Positions 1-61,446 of a DNA stretch of 64,000 bases are shown here, piece by piece. The stretch spans positions 11,109,904 to 11,173,903 of the forward strand of contig CM022672.1 in the NCBI GenBank assembly GCA_012295275.1. Reading direction: 5' to 3'. This DNA is from Chrysomallon squamiferum (lineage: Eukaryota; Mollusca; Gastropoda; Neomphalida; Peltospiridae). The position numbers and the translations under genes were made by a program. How positions within the stretch are numbered: position 1 is the first letter of the stretch; the number at the start of each line of letters is the position of its first letter. The notes under the pieces are model-generated. The model was not told the origin of the DNA and ran no database searches. It was given only the letters and a program-made list of their open reading frames with translations.

Positions 1-3000
1 CTTTTAATAGGGCTTCTGCTTTTTCAAGTTCATCCACTTTTTAGATATGTTTTAATGTTTTCAGGATTGCCTCATTATTATTGTGATATTGTCTTTATAA
101 ATTGTTTCTGATTGATATGTCTATCCTGTTAAACAAAGGTCGTAGTTCAACAAAACATACATGTATGCTATCCACAAAGTAGGTACTAAACTTGCCAGTA
201 AGTGCATAAAAGGCAAATGCCACAAATATTTACACTCATGCTTGCTGTTAAAATAAAGGCATGATCTCAAAATACCAAAGACAGTGCATGTATGTTTATA
301 TAATAGGTGGCCTCTGGTGAATTCTGTCAAATTTAGTCTTTTTGGTATAACTATATAATTCATGTGTATTAGAGATTGAGTCTGGTCATACTAAAGCATT
401 TTGGCCATCATAAACGTTTGTAAACTTAGACTACAAATGTTTAATTCTTGTTGTGTTGATGTTAATCTAGTCAGAAATCAATTTCCAGGAGTTCAATAAT
501 GTGGTTATGCATATGTGTAAAATTTGCAGGGAAAATATATTTTGTAGAGAGGAATTTGTATGTTAATCGTAATATATTTGTTTGAATTTTCAGCATTTAT
601 CACTTTGTAAGATTAATATTTATATAGTCAGTTTTATACATTTGCGCAAAACTGAAATCTTTTCATTGCATGCAGATACTATTTTTGTTACTAAATTGCC
701 ATTTCTTTTTTATAACAATTACTGTGATTTCACTTAACACATTCACTTTTTGTATGAAGCGGTCATGAATCATTAATTGTCCTCCTTGGACAGTGGGAAA
801 AAAGTTACAATGATTATTGTCATTAGTTAGGAATATAAACCAAGAGCACAATATGCTATGGCATTACCCTACAAGCATTCCCCATTAATAGTGCCACAAG
901 GCATTGGAAATACATTTAGAACGTTAAAAAAAAAAAAAAAAGGTTTTTCATTGATTTTCCAGAAATGTGCTCTTGAGCAAAATTTGTGCAATTTATTAAA
1001 GGTTGTGCTGTAATGGTTATATTTTGCTCAAAGAGAATGGATTAATATTTCATTGTTAAATCAGACAGAATTTTCTAGAGTTCCTATTTCAAATCCTACT
1101 GATGAAATAGCAATATATTTATGAAAAATATGTGCAAATGTATTGTAACTAAAATTTATTTATGCATAAATGTCAAAATAATTAAAATTACTGTTTTTTC
1201 AAATAGCATCTTTTCTCTCATCCATTTTTTTTTTTTTTTTGACTCACATAATAATAAGTTGGATTATATTTTATCCAGATAACACATTTAATACTTTGTT
1301 AATTATTATATTATTCATTATTTTTGATAACTTTGAATTTGTAGGACCTGTGAAAATAGATGGATGTAGTTAGGTTTAATGTTATTATTACTTTTGTATT
1401 TAAAAGAGTTTGGTGTGGGAGGTTAACTGATCAGCCCAATATGTTAGAAATTTGTTGTGTGGTTTTCAAAATAGGAAAATGTAGTTGTTTACAGTAAATA
1501 ATTCTAAAATTTATTTTATATTTCTTCCTGTTGGTTTAGGTTTGTTTTATATTTTAAGGTTCAAGATTGTGACAATGTGCATTTAAGAATGCATTGATTT
1601 ACAATCTTTGTTATTATTTATTAATCAGTTTGATGTGAATTTCAAAATACATGGCTTCCAAGGGGGGTCAGTGTTAAACTAATTTAGCATTGGTATTTTT
1701 TTTATTACTTCACCAAGTAGAATGTTATTTGTGAGTGTGAATGATAATAATTTCTAGGTGATATTTTCAAAATATGAACCAATGCATCGACTATAATTAT
1801 TAATGTTTTGCAGTTTGCAGAATTTGTTACGCTGTTCTGAATTTTGAACTTTTTCAATTTTTGCATGATGTTTATAATAATAAAAAAAAAAAAAATTTCA
1901 CATTATTTTTTATCTACAACATATTTTGAATAACTTGATGTTGAGTATTTTGTACTTTTGTCCGTTTTTATATTGTTAGCAAAATAAACAGTGACAAATG
2001 ATATCTTCCATATTTAACATGTAGGAAGGGTATTAATGCACATGTTCTGTAATTGTGAGATCTACTTCAGATTGTGTTTATTTATTATCCTTGGTTGATG
2101 TCTTTCCTTATGTTGTTGACTTAGTTGACAGTGCTTAACTTTGCCTTTATCCACAGATCTGTGATCGTTTTCAGATAACATGCTAGATTATTCACATAAA
2201 ACAAAAAACAAAAACAGTTTTATACAGTTATATATTTTTCCACACTAAAACAATTGCGGGTTAAATAAAACATTAACTGTGATCATTAAAGTAAATTCAG
2301 AAAAGAAACATTGCCAATTTGGCATGTCCATCAACTTTGCTGTTTGTTTATGTTTCAGCATGAAAATGTCATTGTTTGGTCCATCTGGACAACAGTTCTA
2401 ATCATTTGTAAAAACAAAGTTTGACACAATTGTAAAATTTCTTTTATTAATCATTAGCTTCACTTATTTTTGTTTGTTACAATTTTGCTATTTTTGAAGT
2501 ACATTTTATATTTCCTTTTTTATATTATCATTGTTAATGTAGAAAAGATGAAAAATCATATTTTTTATTCAATTTATTTTTAAGTTGTTGTTTTAAACCA
2601 GCAAAACAAAATTTTATATGCAGAAATGTGGAACCTAAGTAAAACAAAAATGTATTTATATTTATTTTAGATGTTTTAAAGAGAGAGTACTAGCTTTTAT
2701 CTAGATATTTACTTATAGTTGTGAAATTTAACTGAGTGAAATTTTCAGCAGCTTGATGACAAAGTGTGATTTAGAAAAGCTGTTAAAATTGTTCAGTGAC
2801 AGAGCATTGAAATTTTATGTGTTGTTACAGCATTTTATAACAAAAATTGCTTGTAGTCATTTGATTATTTGACAGATATTTTGACAAAAAGCAGCAAACA
2901 GAAAAAGAATAACACTGAAAAATTGAACTTAATTTAACTTTTTACTGTGGTTCCACAAAGCATGAATTTTATTTTGTTGTTTTACTTTTCTGCCAACAGG

Positions 3001-3484
3001 TATTCACAAAATCCTGAAACACAAAGTGTCTTATTTGTTATCCGTTCACATTGATACTCAGTTTAATATATTTATTACGTTTTGTATTTAAATTAGCAGA
3101 GTGTATCTGTTAAGTGTTGTTTCAGTTTTCTGTGAATCTCTCTGTCACCATTGTGTAACATGAAAATGTATTAAGCATATGGTGGCAGACTGATGGACTG
3201 GTAGAAATTTTTTATTATAAAAGTGATATAATTTAAAAAAAATATATATTTACTCATGTTTCACTTGTAGATATGTATTTATCCCATATTTATTTTTCTG
3301 TGGCCAGTTATATTTTTCTGCATGTGAGTTTTATATTTAATTAGAGTAAAGGCCATCAGATGATATTTTCAAGTGCAAATATAAATGCTAGTCAGTAATG
3401 TGACTACTACTTGTCACTTTATTATTTATATATTCCTTTTCTTTCTTTCTCTATCTTTCTCTCGATTTCTTTTTTCCCCATATT

Positions 3485-3516
<32 letters not shown>

Positions 3517-5350
3517 AACATTATCTTAAGAGCAGTAATGCTACTTATATATATATATTTATTTATTTATTTATTTACTGAAAGTGTAAATTACTGTGCT
3601 TGCCATTTTATATCTGTCTCTCTTTTGATTATTTTTTTCACCCCATGTAAAACCTTGTGTAAGTAACGTGAAGTGGTTTATTTCTGATTTGATTTAAATA
3701 CAAAATGTGAATAACAAATAAAATAAAATTGTTTTAATTTGCAATCAGTGAAAATTTAGAGATTTGTTTAGTAATTTGTCGTAAAATATTTTTAAAAATA
3801 ACTACATATATCTTGGTAAGCATAATCAAATTTATGGGATTTTCATTTTACATCTTCAAATAAAAAATGGTTATTAAAAATTTAATTTTTTAAACCAAAA
3901 ATCATACAATAATACATTTTAGTTAAAAGATTCCATTTTCAAGTTGCCTGTTAAAGTCACTGTTTCCATATTTATTTTTTGGTGTTGGGATTAAGCAGAA
4001 ACTTACACGTGCAATATTTCAGGAAATGTTCTTTTTCGGTTATGTCTTTGTATTCATATTGCTTATTTTTTTATAGCACCACGTCAGTACAGTGATATTG
4101 TATCAATATTGTGATTTTATCCAAAATATAATATTCCATTAATAAATTAACAGCTGCTGTTTAATTCTGTTTGTAGAATTCTGAGATTTAGTACAAATCT
4201 GTGACGTTGAATAACTCCAGGATCACTGTCATGTCTCAATTGTTCTTTTGTTAACTTTGACATAGGTTTTAACATCTGACCAAATTATGATTTTGCAATA
4301 CAACAAATATTTCATATATTTCTACATAAAACTTGATTAATTAGATCTGTTTCTTTACAGGATAAACTTGAAGAACTTTTAACATTTGCTATGAAGACCT
4401 AAATATAATTAATTATGCAAGAAGTTATTATAAAACTTGGTAAATTTTTTTATTTAAAGTAAAATAAACAAAGACAAAATATATATATATCACGTTTTTT
4501 CTGCAGAACAGTATTAATGAATAAACAATAATTGAGTGTATTTTCATTATGATTAAATTAATTTTTTAATACCTATTTTCATGATAGAGTAAATGTAATT
4601 TGTCACATGTTCAAACCTTATCCTCATACCATAACACTGCATATACAAATATTTCAATGTTAAAAAATTATTTGTTTCACTGTGTAATTGTGAATTTATT
4701 TATTTATTTATTTATTTAATGTTTCAAATGACTCAGTATTAGTATTTTTATATTTGTAAAATATAACTGAGTTTAAAAAACAAAGAAAATTATGCTATAT
4801 TTTGTTTATTTTCAGAGCTGTAATTTTTTTTGAAAGAAAAATGTACATTGTAGTTGCTATTTATTTGGAATTTTGTAAATTGAACTGTTTGTACCATCAG
4901 TTAGCTAATATTTAATGGTGGATATTTTATTTGCATGTATAATCTTACATTTCTTGACCAATTTCACACCAGTTGTGTTTTGTATATGGGGAGTTTTCTT
5001 AGCATTTTTGTTGAATGCCGTTATGGATTATAAAGTTTCTATGTTTTAATAAAAACAAGTCTTGTTTTTTTATTTTACTAAACAATGAACACTGCACAAG
5101 TGTCATTGGTGGCTTGTTTATGTTTCAATAATTATTATTTACTGCTTAATGTTAGAATTTTTTGAATTCATCATTGTCAAAATTATTCCAAATAGAGAAA
5201 ATTCATGGTCGCTTTGTTTGATCATATTGCTGCTAACACGTTATTTATATTTTTAAAATAATTTTAATATCTTTCTATTCTTAACATTTGTGTAAGATTT
5301 TCTTCAGAAAAATAAAGGTTTTCAATAGTAAAAGCATGATTGTTGTTTAC
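1..5350 (+). other. Non-coding T-rich stretch, probable 3' UTR of an upstream + gene
   Basis: No credible exon is visible here on either strand; the few short open frames are AT-rich and resemble nothing. The + strand carries clearly more T than A, the pattern seen on the sense strand of introns and UTRs in every gene of this window. The bias flips to A-rich after about 5350. An AATAAA hexamer lies near 5312, just before the flip, and would suit a cleavage site. I infer a 3' UTR of more than 5 kb, or a last intron plus UTR, of a gene left of the window. It contains poly-A near 3487-3511, a short AT run with TTTA repeats near 3547-3580, and further TTTA repeats near 4696-4719. Confidence 0.4.
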
Positions 5351-14985: not shown

Positions 14986-17315
14986 ATGGCATCACTACAG
15001 TTTCAGATTCATACTGACCAAGAAAACCTGAGATTTTCTGTATCACCATCAAAAAGAGACCAGAAGACAGTTTCAGGAATACGTAAGACAGTGGAAAAAT
15101 ATATGAATGAACAATAATTAATCTTTAAAGATCAAAAAATCTATTCAGAATATATTACTTCATAATTATTTATCATTTTATGACTTTAAATATTCTGTTA
15201 AGTATTGCAATTCAGAAAATAGTTTGAAAATTTAAAATTTATGTTATATTTTTATTGTTTATATTGGTATCATACTGTCACTGCATTTTCATTATTTTAT
15301 ATTTTGTTAACATTTAGAATTTTGTTTTCGGAAAAATTTAAATTCTGGATAGTAGATATTTTATTTTATATTTTGTTTTGTTCAGGTGGCAAAACATTTC
15401 AGTCAGGTACACCATATGCAGATACTACACCTAGAAAGGCTTTAGGTGATCTGAACAACAGAAGCCTCTCACTATCAGGAAAACCTCAACCGCCTTTGAA
15501 AAATCTAAGTAACACATCTGCTATAAAGAAACCAGTTCAGAACATATTAAAACCATTTAGTACCCATAAGGAAAACAAAGTACTGGGATCAAAAATAAAA
15601 CATCATGGAAATCGACAAAACAAACATATACAGGTACCTTGTACTTCTGAAATACTAAATTCACAGTGGCACCTATTCACTAATCATTTATAATTTGTTT
15701 AAAGATTTTACATAGTTTAATAATAATAATAATAATTATTATTTTTTTAAATATAAAAATACTGGTCTTGTTAATTATGCTTGAATTGAACAGTTAAAAC
15801 CTTTCAACATTTTCAGTTTATTAATACATATAAAATTGATCACTATAAAACAGTAATGTGACTATGTGAATAGACTAATTTTAAATGGAGTTAATAAAAA
15901 CTAATTATCTGCTTCTGTTAACAGAAGGAGACCAACAGAAAACAAAGCTGCACAGCTCCAGAGGCAATTCAAATTTCCTCAGAGCAAAGATTATCCCATT
16001 CTGAGGAGGATGAAATTGAATACATGCCAGTTGCTCCGAAAATGAAAGGTATTTTTAAATGTCAAACATATAAAACAGAAAAGGTTTAACTTGAATTGGT
16101 CAACCCCATAATCATGATAATGTTTTATTGTATTTGCACATTCAGTCTTCTAAGTGTATATATATGGTTGCATGGATATCTCAGAATAATTAAGCTCACA
16201 TAATGAGGGTCATTTCAAATTTGTATATTTATTTTTACAAGTAAAATTATGTTGCATTTTATAGTGGGTTCTTTTTACAAGATTGCTATAAATTATTTTG
16301 GTTTCAGAGTCACATTAACTGTAGGTTTATATCAACCAAGATAAAGTTAAATGAAAATGTTTTCTTGGATATTTTATTGTATACAATTACTTTTAGCTGT
16401 ATAAAAATTAAAGAAAAATGATATTTTACTTAGAATATTTTTATTTATGAAGACTAAATCATTCATGAGACAGTAACACTAAACATTTGTAATATTTTTT
16501 AATGTTTGTAGCATTCATTGCATTTCTGAACACATTGCAGATGATTTTGAAGATATATGGCCAAAGAAGGAACGAGTGAGCACGTATATTGAAAAATTAA
16601 TCAACTGGCGACCACCTTGTCTGTTTGGAATTAATGCTATTAGTGATGATGATGAAGAAGAGGATGAAGAAAAAAAATTACAAGAAATGCAAGATTTGAT
16701 TGACAGTTTACCACAACCACAACGAAATACCCCCAGTAAGTTAAACGCCATGACCTTTGATTGGATTACAAAGATCATACATTTATGCAAACAAAACAGT
16801 TGTGTATATGGAGGAAAATGTATAGTTGTTGCACAAGTATTAATTCTGAGCTTTTTGAAACAATGTTTCACTAAACTGTGAATTATAGAAAATCACATGT
16901 TAATAGGATGAACATTTAAAATTATTTTTTTACTAATTTTACTGGCTAGGCCAAATTAACTAAGTTAAGAAATAAAATACTGTTATATTTAAATCATAAC
17001 GGTTGACAATTATGTATATTAAGAAGAAAAAAATCATGTCTTATGGTTGATTCAATCTTTCAGTTATCAGTTTATGAAAACATTATTTTACCATGTTTAA
17101 TAATACCCTACTCCTTGAAATTTTAATGCAGCTTTTACACATTTTCTTTGACAGAAATTACAGAGGAAGATTTAAAAGCACCTGATTGTCCCCCTGTATC
17201 TCTTGATGATATTTCATTGCCATTCATAGACGAAACTCTTGTTTTGCCCTCCATGGAGGAATCGTTCAGTGCTTTTCCACATCTTGAGAAGCTCCAGCTG
17301 AATGTGGATTATTAA
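14986..17315 (+). CDS. PTTG1: Securin (PTTG1-like separase inhibitor), five exons, 274 aa
   Basis: Coding exons: 14986-15082, 15386-15633, 15925-16048, 16541-16735, 17155-17315; all GT-AG, phases consistent, 825 nt. Securin holds separase inactive until the anaphase-promoting complex degrades it. The N-terminal half shows GKTFQSGTP followed by a destruction box RKALGDLNN (49-57), in the same arrangement as vertebrate securin (GKTF... RKALG..N). A KEN box lies at 94-96 inside STHKENKV. Near the very N-terminus, where vertebrates have DKEN, this protein has DQEN (11-14). The C-terminal half is acidic, with EEDEIEYMP, DDFEDIWPKK (a likely separase-contacting segment) and a DDDEEEDEE tract. It ends LQLNVDY. 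A 5' UTR acceptor ends at 14974. A polyadenylation hexamer AATAAA lies near 17783. Homology is limited to short motifs, as usual for securins; the combination makes the call good. Confidence 0.85.
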
Positions 17316-37719: not shown

Positions 37720-40700
37720 TCAGTTAAAAAGCAAAAATCTTTCTTGAAGTGAACCAACACCATTTGGTCGTGGAAAGGTAAAGGCATCATCTTGTGTAAA
37801 GCTGCTAGACTTGCTTTGAACTTTGTGCTGAAGCTTTCGTAGCAATTCTGAGGCTGGTGTATTTAAGGAAAACCCTGATGAGAACAAGCCCATTGTAGGG
37901 TCAAAAGCTGTACTTCCATTAACAAATGGCTGCAACCATGGCATAGCACCAGATGTGCTCTGTTTGGGAGATGTGAAGCCAAGAGGGCTTACCTGGGAAC
38001 TTTCTGATGTTGAAGCTGGAGGTGGGGATGCACTTAAATTTGAACTGGTTTCTACTCCCGATCCAGTTTCTTTCTGATTCTGACTCTCTCTGACTTTCTT
38101 CTGTCTCAGTAGGTGTCGCTCTTTAACTTTGTATTCTAGTGTGGAATGTGGAACACCAAAATAACTACCAGCCCTATGAACACTCATCTCACCTCGTTGT
38201 ACTGCTCTCACTGCCTCCATCAACAACTGGCTATTGTATTTTCTATACTGTCCCCTTTTTGGTCGTGTTTTCTTAATTCCTGATGAACAGCCACTAGAAA
38301 TTCCATGCTTTTCTCTAACAGATTCTTTTCTACATCGCTTTGGAAAATGACCAGATAAATCAATGAACTGAGATGAAGAAACAGCAATAGAATCAGGACA
38401 GCTTGTCAGCTGAGATGTATCCGTAGAAAAAGAGCCTCTTGATGGGCAGTACTCATCAGGTGTTACAGTTCCTGAGCTGTCATCATTGGACTGATCACAG
38501 AACTTTAATTTCTCTGATATTGATCTAACAATAATGTCTTTCAAGGCATCACCTATTTTACTATTTTCATAGCATTTTCCTTCCAATCTTTCGACTGTAT
38601 CTTGAGCATTTGATCCTTTTGATGAACTATTTCCAGGCTTGTAGGACGGAACACGAAGGTCAGCCAAGTTAGCAGCTGTCATGCCGAAACCAAAACATGG
38701 GCTAAATGGAGTGAAAGGACTAACATTAGACATGGCATCATCTAAATCTCTACTGAGTCCAAATTTTGTTTCTGAAAAGGATGCAACTGAGGCACTGTGG
38801 CTTTCCATTTCCAGTCGTTGTTGAATCAATTTACGAATCAAATCTGCCAATAAAGGCAACTTCAGTTCATGAGAATGGGCTGGTGTACGTAAGTTGTCTC
38901 TTGAACCATTCAAATTGTGTTTGCGCCTTAGAAGTTCCATCCTTCGGTCAAATTCTTCATCATAACTATCTAAATCAGGTTCCTTCTTGATGTGCAAAGG
39001 GAATGGCAATGGTGGCAGATAGGCAAAGGAACTGGTCTGCATTAAATCTGATAATGTCATACCATTATCATGACAGTTTTCCTCAGCTGAGCTTGAATCT
39101 TCTATATCCATCTGCAGATTCTCTTCTGATTCTATTTTGAATATTTTGTTTCGAAGAGTGGATCTTGGAATGCCATAAAGCATGGCTGCTCTGCGAGTTC
39201 CTAATTTTCCATCACGAATTTCTGTAACTGCTTGTGAAAGCTCATCGTCTGTGTATGCTTTCTTCCCATTTGCACCATCTTTTTTGTTCCTTCTGGAAAT
39301 AAATCACCACCATAAAGGAATTTAACAAGAAAAGCCAAAACATTTTTTTTTTTAATTTCTATAACAACCATGTGTTTCACATATAAAATTTAATTTGCTA
39401 ATTTATATTTAAACAAATTTTCAAAAAATAATATTGGTTGCTCAGAATAAGGTTAATAAACCAAATTACAAACTAAGAGAATTTTATTTTAGATGATGAT
39501 TATATTGTTTTTTGGATTTCATAAAAGCAGCAAGTTTTATGCTTTTCTGTTATTTTATTATCACACAATTACCGATAACAAAGTAAAAGCCACACCTTTT
39601 CATAATGTAACATAGATAATTATTATCCAGGCAATGTAAAAACAATTAAAAGCTTAAACATCAACACATACCCTGCTAACATAAGAATCTGAGGAATTTT
39701 GAGTTCTATATGCCCTTTGATGGTGGATGGAATAGACATCTCTCCATCTGTGTTGGAAAGAACTGTGGTTGTCTGTGCACCTTTTGCAGTGTTATTTGAT
39801 TCAAGACACTCTCGGCCAAATCCATGAGTGTAGAATTGTGGGCAATAAGGCAAAAGTTCATGCAAATTTCGAAGGCCTGCAAATGAAAAAAGAAAGAAAA
39901 ATAATTGAAAAATTATTAGAAGAACTATCACTTCAAATTATTATTAAAATAAGTTTATTATATCTCAGAGCTGGTAAAAGGTACTGGCAACAAGATCAGT
40001 AACCCAAGGCACCATATGCTAAGGGGTAGGGTGGGGGCCATATTATATCTGAGGTCTTTCAATACAAAGGAGAAAATGTTAAAATAATAAATAAAATAAT
40101 AATAAAAAATAAAAAATATAAAATTGAAAAATTCTTTGGTGGAGTCTAATGTTATTGATAATCTAATTAATAATTATATTATCAAACTGAAAACTAACTG
40201 ACAAAAGGATAGTTGTGTTAGCATGCCAGGACTGGCTTGGTATTATAAAATTCAGGATTATTTAGTAACATATTTTTTTTTTTATAAATATTACTATAAC
40301 TTAGTAAAATTTTCTCAGTAAAAAGAAACCAATGTAAAATTTGAGGATTTACTCACCAGGATAATCAGTTTGTGATTTTCCATTTCGAACATCATCTGTC
40401 ATCTGATCAACAATGTCCTACAACATTTAAAAAAATATAAAAATAAAAATACAGTTAAGGTACTGATATCTATCTATCTGTCTATACGTAATACCATGTG
40501 CCATTTTCTCTTTCTGTTTAAAAAAAAAAGGCATAAGAACATGTATCATTTTCCATGTAAGGAAATTCAGAATAATGATAATAAACAAAATGTAAAAAAG
40601 AAGAAAGGAATGAGGGTAAAACTAAAAATAATATTACAGAACATTATTTTAAAAAAATGTTGTTTTTTTAAATTAGTTTTCCTAATTTTAAAATGGTAAT

Positions 40701-50295: not shown

Positions 50296-53200
50296 TCATC
50301 CACAATACTTTTGAATGTCATCATTTGTCTTACTAAGCAGTATAGTTTTCATATTTGACAAATTTGGTCTGTTGTTTTGTGCTGTGTCTTTGGGTGATTT
50401 TTTAGCATAATGTGAAACTGGAACTCTTGTATCGTTAGTTTGTCTTGGTGGTGTTGACTTTGACTCCTCAATATACATTTTTTGCATTAAACTCTTTACA
50501 ATCCTTGACACTGACTGACCAATTTCTTCAGCGGAAGCTGTAGTTTTATTCAAAATAGACCAATCAGTTTCCTGAACTCCTTGGGGAACCTTTGTAAAAA
50601 TTAAAATGAAATGTTCAAACTGAAACCATTTTCTTTGAGTTGAATACATCATATGACAACAAGGAAAGTAATTTTAACTTTCTAATGATTTCTCCCCTGA
50701 GCTTTTAAAAAAACACGAAAAATAATAAAGTATAAATTAACTTTGTTTTAAAAACTGAAGTTAAAATTACAACTGTAACATACTGAATGAATTTCAGTGC
50801 AGCAATTCTGGAAAATGAATAATGTACTGGGAAGGCACTGATTTGATATGAAATTAAATCTGTAATTTGAATCTCACAATTCTACCTCAAATATCTTTTC
50901 TGGAACATTAAACTTGCCACCGGCAGCTCCTCCTGTAGACTGTATAGGAATAACAATATGGTCATTCCAAATAAACTCCTCTGCCTCATGTGCAGCACCT
51001 GGTCCACCTGAAAAACAATATTTATTATATAATTAATACAGCCATAAGAAACTGTGTGTGTGTGTGTGAGAGAGAGAGAGAATGAGGGAGAGAGGGACAT
51101 TATTATTGCACTAAGAGATAAACCATGTTTAAAATGAAGAAAGAGATGAAACAACAACTAACATTTGTGACCATAACAGAGTTATAATTATATGTTTATA
51201 ATGGAAGATGACAATTTAACAGAAAATGTGCTTATAGATAGAATCTTTAACATTGTGTCTAATTTGTGAATTTATTTATATTCTTATCTATTACAAAAAA
51301 TAAAAAAAAAAAAAAAAAAATAAATAAGTAATAAATAATAATTAAAAAAGTGAACCAAAATGTTCACTTGCACACAATAAACTATTAGAATTGCCACGTT
51401 TTGAATGAATCCTGGCTGTTTACACATCTTACCTTCTATAAGGATACATATATCAAATGTTCTTCCCACAATTGTTTCTCTTTCTCGAATGCTTTCTCCA
51501 CAGAACAGTGTTTTTCCAAAATCTGCAACTCTAAATGTTCCATCAGAATTCTGATTTGTACATTTCTGATGATTCTGAAAATAAAAATAAAAATATTTTA
51601 TTCATTTAGAAAACAAGGTTTTAGATGATAATGTTTTTGTTTTTTTAATTATATCAAAGTGTTTCAACATTTGTTTGAGATTTTTAAGGCACCTAATAAA
51701 ACTAATAGGTTAATAAAAAAAAATGGACCAGACTTTTTTTTTAATAAAAACTGGTTATTTAAAATTGTTAAAAATAATAAATAAATAAAATAAAAATCAA
51801 TATGGCTTTTAGAAAAATACAACAAAAGAATTGTTTATAATACAGCAATAACAAATAATATCCTAACATTTTCCTGTATAAATATACATGGAACATTTTT
51901 TTAAATATTTTTATTTGCATAACAAAATTGTTTAATAATGAAACTAATAACAACAAAGAATAATTAGAAAATATCGCAAAATACCAAATTAATGTTTTGT
52001 CAACACAGAAGAGATAAAAGATAAATAATAAAATACCTGACAATCCTTCTCAGGTAAAATGTGCCACACCCTTCCCTTCTTTTGAGTTTGAACTTGATCA
52101 AAGAAAGCTTTGCTCACTGTCTCACCAACCCCCTGAAACCCTCCTGTTATCAAGACAACATCATCCAGTTTAGCCAGCTCCTTGCCCACACTCCTAAAAG
52201 CAAAATATTAACTGGTGTTTACCTTTTTGTCTTGAGAAGGAAATAGTCTTCTTAAACTAGGCAGTGTCTTTAGTATTTAATATGTGGGTTAAACATTTTT
52301 TTTTAAAAGTATTATCAGTCTTTTTTGAAAACAAAATATCATTAATTTATTAATCTAAGAATATAATTACATTAAGAGTTTACCACCATTTATTGACTTG
52401 TATAAACAAACACTAGTTTCAATTTTGAATTGTCATTACCTGCAAACTGCCTCTGAACTTGTCTTGTAAAATTTTGTTTCTCCAGCAATGTATACACACA
52501 GCTTTTTGCCAATATTTCTTTTAATGTGATTTACCTTTTAAAAATAAAACAGTTTGCAACTTAGTAAAATATTAATATTGCTGTAAAATAATATTATCAC
52601 GGAGGAACATAGCTTTGAAGATATTTCCTTGCAAATAAATGTTAGAAGAAATAATACAGAATGTTTATATAAATGATCACTTTACAATTTGTCTAAAAAT
52701 ATGTATTTTTTTAAATCTTCTTAAGTAAAAACTGTATTAAGTGTTATGCAATCTAGATTGCTAAAACTAAGAGTTCAATAATGGATTTGAGAGAAAAAAC
52801 AACATTTCTGCAAGTAAAATTCTATTAAATGTCATGGAACTCACACTGCTAAAACCAAGAGTTCAAAAATTGTTTTGGGAAGACAATAAAAAAAAATTCT
52901 GTAAGAAAAGAAGTCTGTTAAATGTCACAGAAATCACAATGCTAAAAATTAAGAGTTTAGAAATTGTTTTGAGAAGACAAATATTTTACTTACTCCCTGA
53001 GAGAGCTTGACCTCATTAACCTCTTCCTGGAATAATTCTTTACCTGTAGGGTCAAGGACTTGTCGTATTCTGGCTAGAAGGGTCTGTCTGTAATTTGTCT
53101 GATTAATATCCTTTAATAGATTGAAGTAATCTTATTATTAGTTAATAAAGAATAGCTAGTTCCTGGAAAATAAGTAATCAGAAAAGAGATTTGTTATACT

Positions 53201-56200
53201 TACAAGCTATCTTTAAAATGGCAATTCCGAAAAACAGTTGTTGTTTCTTAAAATAAGTCAACTAAATGGTGGCTAATCTGTGATACTAAATTAAAAAAAA
53301 AATAATATGTGTAACAATAATGAATTTATAATGATAAATGTATTAAACACATTAAGAATATGCTAATAATAATGTATATATAAATAAATCTGTAAAAAAT
53401 TAATAAACATTAATAAAATGCAGAGTAGTTACACACATCCATACATCCACATTCATGCATGTATGCATGCACACATACAAATACATCTAAATACAAATAT
53501 AAATATATAAATTATACAAACTTCAAAAGAGCTGGTGCCTATCAACATACTCATCCAACCAGGCATGCAGAAGTCTTCAAATTTAACAAGGATTAATTTT
53601 TTCCTGTGCTCACAATAGAAAACCTATTAAAAAAAAAAAAAAAAAAACACTAATATCATAATGTAACAGAACTAAATAATGACGTATAATTCATAGATAT
53701 TAAATTGTCAAAAATTGTCAAAAATAAAGTGAAGTGAAGTGAAGTGAAGTGAAGTGAAGTGAAGTGAAGTGAAGTGAAGTGAAGTGAAAAGTAAAGTAAA
53801 GTAAAGTAAAGTAAAGTAAAGTAAAGTAAAGTAAAGTAAAGTAAAGTAAAGTAAATAAATAACCAAGCAAAAAACAAATTAATAAACAATTCAAACTGGT
53901 TTCTTACAAAACACAAAGCCATTAAAATGAAGAGTAAGCTGATGCATTCAGGAACACATATCTATTAATATATTTAATTTTAATATTTAGAAAAACTATA
54001 TGTCCCAAATGGCAAAATAACTAATTTTAAGATAAAATAAAGAAGAATGGAAATAAGTAAAAATAAAAATTCTCAGATTTAATATACAATAAACTGCACC
54101 TCATACCTGTTGCTGACATGTTCTGGAACGGGAAAATGCCTGTGAAAGTATTACAATAATAACACCAGCTTGATCAGCCATTTCTTGAAATTGTTGTTGA
54201 TGATGTTGACTTTGTTCTAAAGATACACTGTTTTTGTTGTTGTTCTTGTTCAGCTCTGCATTGGAGATTTGACTGCTGGGTACTGGAAAATATATTAAAA
54301 TAAATATATACATAAATAAATAGTGGTAGAAAATGTTTTTAGAAAATGTGCAACACACACACACTCAGACACACAAACATATAATGGCAAGAAGTTGGGA
54401 CGGAACTGTATTTACTTTGATAATTTACTTGTTACTTACTTATGTTAATTATTCAAAGTTATTTCTTTAGTGTTTAAATTTTAACTGCTGGTTTCAGTCT
54501 TAAAATACCATTATTATAATGGTTTTCATTTAAAAATAACAAATAAAGTGTTGTTATTTAAGAACTATTTCGTTTTGATGTATTGTTCTTGTGGGGGTAC
54601 AACAAAATCAATATGCATGCTCCAGACAGCAGTCATTTGAGAAATAAAACTTTTAATTTAAATTAGTTTTTGCAATATTTATGACTGCAGTTTAAAGAAA
54701 TAACTGTAATGGTAATAATAATAAAAAAAAACCCATTGCAAACATGAATCCAATTACATAAATCTTTTATGTAATTTTTTAATATTACAGAAAGTAATAA
54801 TCTCTTAACTTACATAGGTCCTGACTAGTAGTGAAATAATCTTGACTGTCACTATTTTTCTGGATTGAACTCCAAACAATGAAACCTTCACTTTCCAACC
54901 AGCAACCAATATCCTCAACCTTGAAAAAATTACAACAAAACAAAAACATTATCTATAAGTTTTAAATAATATTTTTAAAAATAATTTCTTTTTTTCAGAA
55001 GTGTAATTGTTAGAAAATTTGACTTCTTTCTTTATATTTTAGGATCAAATACATGATCTATAATTGTAAATCATATTGGCACACAGTAATAGACATAAGG
55101 CTTAGTAGTAGCAGCTGAAGTGTTGGTGGTAGTAGTAGTAAAGTACTAGTAGCAGTGGTAATGGTAAAGATAATGTTAGTGGTGATGATAGTAGTAATAG
55201 GAACAGTAATAGTTGTTGTACCAGTAACTGTAGCACCAGTAGCAGTATTAATAACAATAATAATAAAAATAGTAATTTCATCATAATATTAACAGTCTAA
55301 TAATTTAATAATAATAATAGATTATCTACAATGAAACAAAAGCTTAAAAAACTTAAATGAAAAAAAAAAATTACATGAAGAGATGGACCAAATATTGTAG
55401 AAAAAAAAAAAAAAAAAAAAATGTTCAGTTAAATTCCAAAGTATATACTATTTATAAAATTATTAATGATAACAAATAAATAAATATGAGTAGCCTGACA
55501 TGAATGTGTACTTATTTTACTTAAGCAAGGTGCTGACAAAAATACAAATGTATTAAAGTGATTATATTAATGAGAAAACCAGTGCCCTGCCGTGTATTTT
55601 CTCCAGAGCCATTTGTTCAAACTTACAAAGGTACTACAGTCACATATTGCAGCATAAAAAGCAAACCTTCAGATTATTTTCTCCAAAATGATAGGAATAC
55701 CAGAATATGGAAAAAACCTTCCCTTTTCTTTTGTCATTATAAATTTTTATTCTTTTTTAAAATAATTTTTTACTTGCTTAAATTTAGCTACATTTTGTTG
55801 TGTAGTGTCAGAGTGGTATGTTTTAAAAAAGTGAAAAAAAAAATAACAAGGAGTTGAATAAGTAGCTGACCCTCTCATTAGTAATGCATAGATCTAAGAA
55901 AACCCTAGAATTAATTCCACTTGGCAAAATATCCGTCATACTTACAAACTGAGCTTGGTTTGGGTGAACACATATGACTATCCTCTTTTCAGTTTCATTA
56001 TTGTCTACTGTCGAATCAAGGCTCAATACACCCTTAGGAAGTTTTCCAGCAAATGTCTTCATTAATGTTTTCTGCAAGATAAAAAAAAAAAAAATAAAAA
56101 AATAAAATAGAGGACTATCAAATTGGTATATTTAATTACTGAGGTAAAGTCATCAAACAGTATCTGATTGAAAAGATACTTTTTACAACATATCAAGAAG

Positions 56201-59200
56201 TCTTGTCTGTTAGAGAACTGAAATATATGTATTTTTTAAATAATCCTTTAAAATATGATGATAACAATATTATTATTAAAATAATAATAATAATAATAAT
56301 AATGCAGTCACACATATAAAAATATATACAACACAAACAAACACACATACAACATAAAGAGTTTATTTTGACGTTACTCACTCTCCTGGAAAGGGAAGGT
56401 AATCTGTTTACAGTTTCTGACTTCAGATGTTTCAGACAAACTGCTATATCATGGGCTACCATTTTCACATAGCGTTTTTCCCAGCAGTTGGTATCGTAAG
56501 CATGTGCAGAATTTCCTTCTGCAATTTCTGATTTTAAAATATTATACATTATTGTACATGTAATTAATAGATTTGAACACAAAATTAAATATATTTTAAA
56601 ATTATTGTAATTTATTAAAAACAACTGTTTTTATGGTTTAAATAAATAAAAAAATAATAATAATAAAATAAATAAATAAATAAAAAGAATAAAAAAGAAA
56701 AACAGGAATAAAATAAATGTTAACAATGAAAATATTAAAAACAATCAATACACACTGATGATTAATTTAACAAACAAATGCACTAATGTGTTTTGTTATT
56801 CAAAGAAGGTGATTTAGCAACTTATACAACACATTCATTAATCTTTTTATAATATATTTGGAGAATTAAACTAACATTCAGTACATGGAATTTTGAACAC
56901 AACATTTACATACCTGCTTGAATCTGAGCTGGAGTTTTCCAGCTGATGTACTGTGTTGTAGCAAACTGGATAGCAAGAGATCGAGGAGGCCAGACATCAA
57001 GAAAATTAACAGGTAAAATGTACTTCCCTAGCACATCAGCTAACTTCACCTGTAATTTTAAACATATTATTAATGTATCAAACTGCTACAGTACTTTAAA
57101 AATATTTTAAATATCAATAAAATTGCATTAATTATTGTTGTTTTTATTTGGGTGTTTTACTCACATGCATTACTATTGGCTATGATCACTAAAAGGCAAT
57201 TATTTACATTAGAATCTTTCATTTATATGTTGCTTCATTATTAAGAAACACTCATAGACTTTTATATGATTGGAGCCTAAAGAAAAGACAAAATTTAAAA
57301 AAAAAAAAAAATTGTTGTTTTCTATATTGTTGTTACAGGTAAGAATTTGCTCTCTTTCAACCACACATATACTATGTACTTTTAGCAACAGACATATCAC
57401 TTTCCACTGCTCTACTATTTTTCACCATATTGCAATGCTATGATAGAAAAAAATGATTTTAGATGTATTTATTTCTCTTTCAAACCCAATCATATTAATT
57501 TACAATCGCTTTAACAACAGCTATATCACTCTCACCTCTCTGTTGGTCCACTGAGTTTCCCCATATCGTGGTGTGATAAGAGGAATGAAAACTTCACAGT
57601 TGCTCACAGCGTAGTTCAAAGAATCCTGCCAGTCAACACCACTTTTAATTTCGTGTACATCCTAATTTAAAAGTTGATAAAAATTAAAAAAAAAAAAACA
57701 TACAAACCCACCCATAACCCCTCCACAAAAATGAACAATCATACAAACAAACAATATAAAAATTAAAAAATTTAATAAATCATAAAAAAATTAAATTAAA
57801 ATAAACTAAAAAATCCACATTAATATTAATTTCTTATGAATATCAAAGTTTTCTTGGCTATTAAATCAAATATGGTTAATATAAGTAATATACAATATTA
57901 AATAATATATAAATAATATATAAATAAAGAGTTCATGTGTGAATTTTAATAGATATATAATGAAATGTGAATATACATTTAGATACAAAAAACATAATTT
58001 AAAAAAGAGCCCAATTTTCTTAAAGTGTGCTCTATACATATTTTAAAAATAAAGATTTAAATCCACAGTAATTAACCATAAATTCTTATTTCATTTGGGT
58101 CAATAATTTTTAGATGTTGTAAGAATCTAATTATTAGACAACAAAGTAAAAAAATCTGAAAACAGCATTTTGGTTGCTAAAAAAATAATGTTTTTAAAAT
58201 AGATCTATTCTCAGCTATTCTAAATATAAAATTATCTATTTATATTTGAAATCTAAAAATCAAATGAGAAATTTCATTCTTCAGCCTCAAATGCATTACA
58301 TTGATAATAACATTTTACCAGAAATACACTAAATCCAAGCAGAGATAACTCTTCTTTGAGATTTAAAGCGTGATCTGCAGCATCAGCTCGAGCATAGCTG
58401 ATAAGCAGTTGTTTTGCTTGACCAATTACATCGCAAATACCACATTCATTGCCAGATTCTTCACAACTTGGCCACCTACTGTCTCTGCTAACAGAAAAAA
58501 AAACCAAAAAACCCCCATTTTTTTGAATTTATACTGCTCAACAAAAATATCAGAGAAAGAAAGACAGGTATATTCAGCTGAACTTTATAATGATAAATAT
58601 ATATCAGTTAAAAGCATGCTTTAAATAGAAAACCTGTACATTACAGATATTCAACTGAATTTGTAGATTCCAGAAAAATCAGACTACTTTAATTGTTCTA
58701 AATTAGTAAATGTACAAAATGCAAACAACTGGCAAAAAGAAAAAAATAATGATTTTCAAAAAGTATTTATTGTGTAAGAAATGTGAAAGTGGTAAAACAA
58801 AAATGTGTATATTGTACTTAAAAACTTACTACTAATGGAAAATATTAAAATAATATAAAAATGAAGAAATAAACCTTTTTAATCTTTTTCTAGGAACAAC
58901 ATCCATCTGGCAATTTGAATTTGAAAAGTCAAGACATTCAAAAGAGAAGACGTCAGCACAAACACAAACTGAACCATCAATCAGACAGTCCATGACAGTC
59001 ATGTGCTCTTCCATTTGCTTGCTGATTGGCCAGGAGTTTGAATCAAGAAACTGGTAATTGTTTGTGATGCCTTTGAAAAATGCAATCTGAAATTTGTTAT
59101 TAGCGAATTGTGCATATGGCTCATGTTTTAAAATTTCAAAAGCAAAGATTCTTGGAATAGACTAAAACCATCATTACGTTATTGAAATATTTTATATTGT

Positions 59201-60732
59201 ATGTAAAAGAAAAATTAATATATTCTAGAACAAAGATTTCATCTATATAAGTAAGCCTTGTCTTGTAGAACACAATACAGCATTCAGGGTTTTAGAAACT
59301 TAAATAAAACAGAAATGGTGGGAGATTATATATTTTTAATACAAACAGCAGTCACCATAACTATCAGTTGCTTTACCAGGTTTCCTTAATCAACCTGAAA
59401 TCTCTGCAGTTTTATACAGTTATTTTCATGAACAAAATCAAATCAAGTTTATTGAGTATCAAATTCTTCTTTATGCATTTATCTACTGTTTTTACCATTC
59501 AATACTTACTTCTTTATTAATGGAATTTCGTAGTTCAGATAATTTAGTTGCGTATTCTGCAAATACAAAACCTACAGGGATATGAGATTTTGTCTTCACC
59601 CCTATCTTTAACATTTCTACAAAAAATAAATAAATAAAACCAACAAACAAATATATATATATATATATGTTACTTAACAGTACAACAAAATATATTAAGT
59701 AAATTCAGTTATTGCTTCTTTTGATTTTTTTTTTCATTTAATTTGTAAAAAAGACACTCATTTGTAATGTTGAAATGTATCAGCCATGAGTAGATGAAAT
59801 TTTAATAATAATAATATAAACACTACTGAGGTTAAATTATAAGATACACATAACACATATGAACTTACACACACACACACACACTTTCACACAATCAGAA
59901 TTTTTATAGCATACAAATTTTAAAAAATTACCATATTTTCTCTGAATATATACAATATTGTCTGGAGAAATAATCTGACTGACTTTAATGTACTTCTCCT
60001 GTGTTTGGTTGATTGTCCATCTATAAAAAAATATTTTCTTTTCGGCATTAATCATTTTATTCATACATAACCAATTTCATTATTTTAAATAATAATCCAA
60101 AGAAAGACTCCAAGCTAAAGTACCATAAGAAAATATAAATTTTACTTAATACTATTTCAGTTTCTTTTTCCTTTTATTAGTATTAATAAGATTATGATTA
60201 TTGTTGTAGGATTTATTTATTACAGAGTGCTAAAAACCTTACTTTTTATGGGTAAGAAAGATGAATTGGTTAGGAACAGCAGGAATCTGTTGAGAAATCA
60301 AAGTTCTCATATCAACCACTGAAAGAGATCCATTAACCAGCTTTTCATTTTCCAAAATCACAATCCCCAGAGAAACAGATGAATCTCTTGTACTTTCAGA
60401 AACCAACTGCACTCCAATAATTGTTGTCATGGTGATCAATCTCTGTAAATAAAGAGCAAGTATAATGTTGAATACACATTTTTTTTTTTTTATCAGCAAA
60501 CAATACCGCAAGAATAACTTTCATTACTTTTACTTTTTGAAAATGAACTTCATAATCTTTATAATCTTAGTGTTTTAATATTTACTGCTTAAGATCAGTT
60601 TACAGTATGATTACTACATTAATGGATACAAATTGTAACATTGAATAAGTTTTGGCATTCTCTTTCTGCCAGTGCTTTGATTATTAGTATTATTACTATT
60701 AATATGTCTACTGCTTTGATTATTACTTTAAA

Positions 60733-60817
<85 letters not shown>

Positions 60818-60990
60818 CACTTAATCACATAATTATTTTAAAAATAGAAGAAAAAAGAAGCAAAAAAGCTTATTTTGACAGTTCAAAAACTGAAGTATTA
60901 CATGGTCAATATCTCTACAAGATGGAACAAACATCTATTTTCATGCATGAATCTAATGTGTTTTACAGAAGAAAAAGAAAACAAAAGAAC

Positions 60991-61025
<35 letters not shown>

Positions 61026-61446
61026 TAATAATAATAAAAATCAATTAAAAAATCAGTAATACAACATCAAAAATACTTTTCACTTAATATTATGTGCAAA
61101 TATTAATATGATGATCATTTTAAATCTGGAGTTGGATTTAATCAGGAATTTAAGATTAGTGAAAGTTACTTACTATTCACATAACTCACTCATTACTGTC
61201 AAAGCTTAATCCTCAAATTAAAATTGAAAGTCAAAGTGGAACAGAAGACTCACACTCAGAAGTGTCAGCGATGGATAATCATAATGATGTTAAAAAATAA
61301 TACTTTAAGCAAACAATTTGTTTTTAGGAAATTATTTGTCAATGGATTTTAATTCCTTAGAATAACGTTAATCTGCATATAAATACTGACTTGATATTAA
61401 GAAAACTCTTAATAAAACTTTTAACTTTCCCACCAATGCCAGCCAT
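50296..61446 (-). CDS. TIR-TIR-SLOG protein, nineteen exons, about 893 aa
   Basis: Exons in coding order: 61387-61446, 60243-60442, 59932-60020, 59510-59616, 58875-59086, 58319-58487, 57536-57661, 56914-57049, 56382-56527, 55946-56071, 54814-54919, 54107-54282, 53522-53623, 52994-53110, 52440-52534, 52037-52193, 51433-51574, 50886-51007, 50296-50589. Phases all match over 2682 nt. TIR1, about 248-372: LLISYARAD (box 1), GFSVFLDVHEIKSG, W290 (SARM1 F603 position), VFIPLITPRYG, then W317-T-N-R-E321, aligning with SARM1 W638 and catalytic E642. TIR2, about 445-580: IVICVHPNQ, GVIIVILSQAFSRS, with T547/Q551 at those sites and a long Asn/Gln/Ser insertion (about 470-525), so probably inactive. SLOG (DprA/LOG-like Rossmann), about 634-800: LCVYIAGE, VLITGGFQGVGE (669-680), FDICILIEGGPGAAHEAE (P-G-G-type loop at 756-763), IQSTGGAAGG. 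Residues 1-222 are an unrecognised conserved-looking module; the tail is basic and disordered. Likely NAD-linked signalling, by inference. The first exon is the least certain. Confidence 0.85.
52738..52985. repeat. Three degenerate copies of an about 85-90 bp repeat in a TIR-SLOG intron
   Basis: Between exons 14 and 15. Each copy contains AATGTCA-type sequence, then (C/A)TGCTAAAA(C/T)(C/T)AAGAGTT and TTTGAGA/GGGAAGACAA. Copies start near 52738, 52825 and 52916 and diverge by about 15-25 % by eye. Confidence 0.65.
53726..53853. repeat. Pentanucleotide array switching from GAAGT to AAAGT
   Basis: About 12 copies of (GAAGT/AGTGA)n followed directly by about 13 copies of (AAAGT)n, in the intron between exons 12 and 13 of the TIR-SLOG gene. 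One base change in the unit then propagated. Confidence 0.9.
60735..60814. repeat. Compound (CT)n(AT)n microsatellite
   Basis: About 23 CT units followed by about 16 AT units in intron 1 of the TIR-SLOG gene. Uninterrupted, so likely length-polymorphic. Confidence 0.9.

Follow-up and report, generated by a model that had tools for sequence, protein, structure and literature searches.

The gene and its domain architecture

The stretch of DNA analysed here, hereafter the window, comprises 64,000 nucleotides of contig CM022672.1 of the gastropod Chrysomallon squamiferum (assembly GCA_012295275.1, positions 11,109,904 to 11,173,903 of the forward strand). Its minus strand carries a gene whose predicted protein of 893 amino acids (aa) joins two TIR domains, designated TIR1 and TIR2, and a C-terminal SLOG domain in one chain. 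Nineteen exons had been proposed for the interval 50296..61446 in an earlier note on this DNA, and this proposal was borne out: the joined frame of 893 aa contains a single stop codon, which is the terminal one, and all 18 introns have GT-AG borders. The features of the gene are listed below in window coordinates.

50296..61446, minus strand: whole gene, 19 exons, 893 aa; start codon unsure
61446-61387, 60442-60243, 60020-59932, 59616-59510, 59086-58875, 58487-58319, 57661-57536, minus strand: exons 1-7
57049-56914, 56527-56382, 56071-55946, 54919-54814, 54282-54107, 53623-53522, 53110-52994, minus strand: exons 8-14
52534-52440, 52193-52037, 51574-51433, 51007-50886, 50589-50296, minus strand: exons 15-19
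59932..60442, minus strand: first N-terminal beta-grasp-like domain (predicted, from the models of relatives P0001 and P0046), about aa 26-114, exons 2-3
58875..59616, minus strand: second N-terminal beta-grasp-like domain (predicted, from the models), about aa 117-195, exons 4-5, followed by a linker
56382..58487, minus strand: TIR1, about aa 247-400, exons 6-9; catalytic-type Glu kept
57536..57538, minus strand: codon of E321 (GAG), last of exon 7
52994..56071, minus strand: TIR2, about aa 442-605, exons 10-14; without catalytic Glu
54107..54109, minus strand: codon of Q551 (CAG), aligned with E321, last of exon 12
50296..52534, minus strand: SLOG domain, about aa 634-841, and C-terminal tail, exons 15-19 (Pfam, PADLOC, hhalign, predicted fold)
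51479..51481, minus strand: R740, likely counterpart of ThsA R371 (by eye)
50985..50987, minus strand: E763 of EGGPGAAHEAE, aligned with ThsA E403 (hhalign)

The nearest named relative is the ortholog LOC121384084 of Gigantopelta aegis, with which 622 of 866 aligned columns are identical (72%). Exon 1 (20 aa) lies outside this alignment, which starts at residue 26, and the exact start is therefore unsure. For exon 5, an acceptor at 59161, located 75 bases upstream and adding 25 aa, was dropped in favour of the one at 59086, which agrees with the ortholog, and the positions W290, W317-x3-E321, VLITGGFQGVGE and EGGPGAAHEAE as numbered in the earlier note match the model that uses the latter acceptor. 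In the genome of C. squamiferum itself (404.6 Mb, 22 contigs), 18 of the 21 matched places lie inside this gene and cover the chain, and the remaining three are weak, restricted to TIR1 (30-42% identity) and situated on two other contigs; such match counts are lower bounds for large families. No other locus matched along the chain, and the gene thus looks single-copy.

Structures were predicted with AlphaFold2 for the Gigantopelta ortholog (P0001; alignment of 102 sequences, mean predicted local distance difference test score (pLDDT) 81.4, predicted template modelling score (pTM) 0.70) and for a sponge relative (P0046; 56 sequences, pLDDT 83.8, pTM 0.62). Both models have the same predicted order of two beta-grasp-like domains, a low-confidence linker, TIR1, TIR2, a helical joint and the SLOG domain. 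The two N-terminal domains resemble each other (hhalign 99.1%) and matched no Pfam family; their beta-grasp assignment is a prediction from the order of strands and helices. A Foldseek match to talin (6mfs, E 7.8e-5) was obtained, for which the aligned range was not printed. Neither these domains nor the Gln of TIR2 nor the age and breadth of the family appeared in the earlier note.

The TIR and SLOG domains

The Pfam family TIR_2 matches two stretches of the window protein (8.4e-24). At the position of E321, 99 of 102 aligned relatives have Glu, two a gap and one Lys, and the W-x3-E motif, shown on the sponge relative P0046, lines up with the site of the SARM1 TIR domain, so that the SARM1-type site which the earlier note had read in TIR1 is confirmed and is kept in the family. 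TIR1 is also the most constrained domain in the 102-row alignment. TIR2 has Gln at the position of Q551 in 99 of the 102 rows, and its weak profile relatives are the TIR domains of TLR2/TLR15 (0.011) and MyD88 (0.68). The PADLOC model of ThsB matches the window protein at 1.8e-14, other TIR models match it as well, and ThsB_TIR (PF08937) is not among its Pfam matches up to E 0.1; DUF4062, reportedly a group of TIR-like NADases according to a preprint (PMC13174449), gives a weak match of 13.7 bits against a cut-off of 24.7. The codons of E321 and Q551 each close an exon in phase 0, so that an intron is found at the same place in both TIR domains, a pattern resembling the duplication of a single intron together with the domain.

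The C-terminal domain of the window protein matches the SLOG family LDcluster4 of Pfam above the cut-off (9.2e-11). A search for STALD, a family reportedly defined together with SLOG in a paper of 2015, was empty in the snail genome and likewise in all 14 control genomes, and hence uninformative. The domain is homologous to the SLOG domain of ThsA, as indicated by hhalign and by the PADLOC model of ThsA, which was matched by 10 of 11 SLOG pieces of relatives. The hhalign comparison used 99 of the 102 rows (length at least 190) and a ThsA set from which one of eight plasmid genes, L009, was omitted. The TGG and GGxG motifs of a Rossmann-type SLOG fold are present, and the fold that the earlier note had expected for residues 634-800 was predicted for about 634-841, with ThsA bound to 3'cADPR (cADPR, cyclic ADP-ribose) among the top tied structure matches. 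Of the ligand residues of ThsA, only E403 was aligned by profile comparison (with E763), and R740 was assigned to R371 by eye; the matching Arg and Glu of ThsA coordinate its ligand according to the excerpted text of PMC10022894. Glu is found at the E763 position in 90 of the 102 rows, and the Arg/Glu pair is mostly kept. The motif EGGPGAAHE is decayed in three relatives of oyster type (P0066, P0074, P0076) and four scallop relatives (P0073, P0075, P0085, P0088), in which the TIR1 Glu is retained. At L009 (positions 1882-4241), on a plasmid of Mycolicibacterium vanbaalenii, a ThsA gene (PADLOC 8.8e-61) is followed by a DprA-annotated gene matching ShosA (8.7e-51), and no annotated TIR gene was found within the 6.3 kb seen.

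Distribution and descent of the family

The first full-length protein search, performed with a longer gene model, yielded 202 proteins at E <= 1e-3. The relatives listed are the best 120 of these 202, the best 120 of 221 in a further full-length search and all 38 of a third search; the alignments comprise 47 (A1) and 102 (A2) of 120 listed proteins and 56 of 137 (A4). Among the matches listed, the holders include gastropods, bivalves, a chiton and a cephalopod within the molluscs, nemerteans, annelids and a priapulid, spiders, scorpions, ticks, mites, horseshoe crabs and a sea spider on the chelicerate side, and further echinoderms, hemichordates, Trichoplax and sponges; no vertebrate, insect, nematode or cnidarian names occur among them. 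Some holders are partial, such as Trichoplax (734 aa) and Dysidea (372 aa). The TIR plus SLOG architecture sought in animal proteomes proved to be present as one chain in relatives across animals. The third of the searches above, a profile search with TIR2 plus SLOG, gave its 38 proteins at lengths of 193-660 aa; 37 of them, at E <= 4e-20, presumably belong to this same family as fragments or relatives, and P0175 was matched at 1e-4.

In a maximum-likelihood tree of 40 rows, starred support was obtained for echinoderms, hemichordates, nemerteans, chelicerates plus the sea spider, bivalves, gastropods and two sponge groups; the molluscs as a whole received 93/91, the two annelids do not group together and the deepest branchings are weak. 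Recovery of these groups is what vertical descent would lead one to expect. In the collection viral_contigs, no stretch matched the whole protein, and none of 138 stretches matching SLOG patterns was confirmed; likewise, of 15 stretches picked out by two TIR1 patterns among the collected prokaryote genomes, none was confirmed. Since these scans were based on short patterns, the viral and prokaryotic absence is weak evidence. A tblastn match to glucose dehydrogenase was discarded (E 4).

In Tegillarca granosa, two relatives on one contig bear consecutive locus numbers (KUTeg_005650 and KUTeg_005651, P0013 and P0045), the latter without the TIR1 stretch around the Glu, and two different relatives each were found in Centruroides vittatus and Tachypleus tridentatus. 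Elsewhere in the window, a 527-residue open stretch on the minus strand (37723-39303) resembles by eye a pipsqueak-type helix-turn-helix protein at its start, and one on the plus strand (15223-15690) resembles securin by eye (TPRKALGDLNNR).

Proposed function and comparison with known systems

Judged from its sequence, the protein may be, with a probability of about 0.5, a single-chain TIR NAD hydrolase or cyclase which is switched by an NAD-derived nucleotide on its own SLOG domain. TIR1 would cleave NAD+, and TIR2 would be an inactive partner aiding the assembly of TIR1, a role suggested by the fact that TIR catalysis in SARM1 and AbTir requires TIR-TIR contacts. The SLOG domain would bind NAD+, ADP-ribose or an isomer of cyclic ADP-ribose and would control TIR1 activity, a gating modelled on the SLOG control of the SIR2 part in ThsA, and the predicted beta-grasp domains may supply an input or an assembly contact. 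If the ligand were TIR1's own product, a self-amplifying or self-limiting Thoeris logic would result. By analogy, innate immunity or cell death would be the most likely setting. A more far-reaching version, which we consider possible but rather doubtful, is a one-protein animal Thoeris system: TIR1 would make a cyclic ADP-ribose-type messenger, which its own or a neighbouring SLOG domain senses, with feedback that drives the cell into NAD+ depletion or an immune response, and the system would have been present in the last common animal ancestor and lost in vertebrates. Such a loss, if true, would explain why the immunology of model animals never met it.

Several observations weigh against a TIR enzyme controlled by a ThsA-like SLOG sensor. 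P0010 has Lys at the place of the TIR1 Glu and two relatives lack the stretch, possibly as a result of gene-prediction errors, and the profile match between TIR1 and TIR2 is modest (hhalign 62%). In the whole window protein, STALD scores 21.9 against a Pfam cut-off of 24 and no PADLOC ThsA model matches at E <= 0.1; among full-length relatives, ThsA was matched in 7 of 10, in some weakly. LDcluster4 ranks first in Pfam and TIGR00725 is the best NCBIfam match for 10 of the 11 pieces (27.3 for the first member against a cut-off of 106.9), and the hhalign controls contained no other SLOG family, so that ThsA is a relative and not necessarily the nearest one. Within 1 Z, the predicted fold also matches TM1055, carriers of the molybdenum cofactor and PpnN, a nucleosidase, and on account of these ties the fold cannot tell a sensor from an enzyme. 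K388 of ThsA has no counterpart, and the SLOG Glu is absent in 12 of the 102 rows, seven of which are oyster- or scallop-type bivalves with a TIR1 Glu; ligand binding by the SLOG domain thus appears dispensable in some lineages, and these bivalve rows with a decayed motif constitute a natural experiment on its role.

That the gene model is an artefact, in which separate genes or pseudogene pieces were joined on paper, is very improbable. The evidence for TIR and SLOG on one transcript comes from relatives, none of it from C. squamiferum itself, and consists of single open reading frames (ORFs) on contigs of the source 'lgn' that are about 2.8-3.6 kb long (for example P0011 with 887 aa on 2,867 bases) and that we take for transcript assemblies, and of P0052, whose ORF is complete and whose name is that of a transcript assembly. 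Against an artefact stand the intron borders and the absence of internal stops, the same domain order in orthologs of many phyla, also on these short contigs, and a family tree that recovers most animal groups; a gene-fusion artefact of this kind was rejected on intron, frame, ortholog and tree evidence. The SLOG domain might also be an enzyme of LOG/PpnN type that cleaves an NAD-derived nucleotide at its N-glycosidic bond, TIR1 making a product which the SLOG domain removes or converts. The tie with PpnN leaves room for cutting rather than sensing, but we regard such an enzyme as unlikely: the Thr place of the LOG motif GGxGT is Ala in 70 of 102 rows and Thr in three, Pfam assigned no LOG enzyme family to the 11 SLOG pieces, and TIGR00730, which we take to be a LOG-type family, was found in one piece only (E 0.038). 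The ThsA SLOG domain is not known to cut its ligand, and its Arg and Glu, which match those of the snail domain, serve in ligand coordination as described above.

About equally improbable is a non-enzymatic adaptor, whose TIR domains would serve as contacts in a Toll/MyD88-type pathway and whose SLOG domain would be a relic or a nucleotide-tuned scaffold. The lack of a Glu in TIR2, its Toll-like and MyD88 profile relatives and the loss of the SLOG motif in oyster- and scallop-type rows would fit this alternative, and conserved TIR proteins were proposed as alternative adaptors by placozoan authors in the excerpted text of PMC6321704. An adaptor TIR would, however, not need to retain the Glu, whereas the SARM1-type motif is kept in 99 of 102 TIR1 rows across animal-wide divergence and TIR1 is the domain under most constraint.

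Searches of 5.39 million open papers revealed no description of a TIR-SLOG protein from animals, in agreement with the earlier note, which knew of no named animal family; the family may nevertheless already be listed by Gerdol 2017, and the 2015 SLOG paper may mention animal fusions of this kind. The main text of the 2026 atlas of eukaryotic TIR domains does not mention SLOG, and the atlas stresses that a number of TIR clades of eukaryotes, among whose members are molluscs, are uncharacterised (PMC13142454). Excerpts of the Aplysia immunome study report 17 TIR-only proteins, likewise without mention of SLOG (PMC9334734), and the Aplysia relative of the present family is P0031. The term is also absent from the excerpted placozoan paper, which cites the ecTIR-DC families (PMC6321704). 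The family gives one eukaryotic TIR group a concrete ligand hypothesis and poses the testable question whether animal cells use cADPR-isomer signals from TIR domains. If true, the proposed TIR enzyme with its own SLOG sensor would stand next to SARM1 as an enzymatic TIR system of animals and would connect bacterial antiphage NAD signalling directly with animal biology, at the root of the animals.

Among known systems, SARM1 is closest to TIR1 in sequence, and the W-x3-E site is common to both. The SARM1 TIR domain is controlled by an allosteric site for NAD metabolites, and its ARM domain gates; in the snail protein, for which Pfam gave no match to ARM or SAM domains up to E 0.1, the C-terminal SLOG domain would fill this role, with TIR2 appearing inactive. 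TRPM2, which carries SLOG-bearing MHR domains and binds ADP-ribose, is likewise an animal protein with SLOG and matches weakly at the glycine-rich motif (E 0.013). It is an ion channel, however, whereas the Pfam scan of the snail protein revealed no channel family, and no 19-residue stretch is strongly hydrophobic (maximum mean 1.56). The ecTIR-DC families (Gerdol 2017) are likewise conserved invertebrate TIR proteins; the matches listed for the present family include no vertebrate. PpnN and LOG nucleosidases differ, as profiles place the snail SLOG domain with LDcluster4, STALD and TIGR00725. Bacteria divide the making of the messenger (ThsB TIR) and its sensing (ThsA SLOG) between two proteins. 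In contrast to type I Thoeris with its two genes (ThsA SIR2-SLOG and ThsB TIR), the snail protein is one chain in which, among domains of TIR or SIR2 type, TIR1 alone has a catalytic-type site (up to E 0.1, neither Pfam nor PADLOC gave a SIR2 family for the window protein), and it differs further by the inactive-looking TIR2, the two predicted beta-grasp domains and the lack of a K388 counterpart. Common to both is a Glu-bearing TIR domain together with a SLOG domain, the SLOG domains being homologous and similar in predicted fold.
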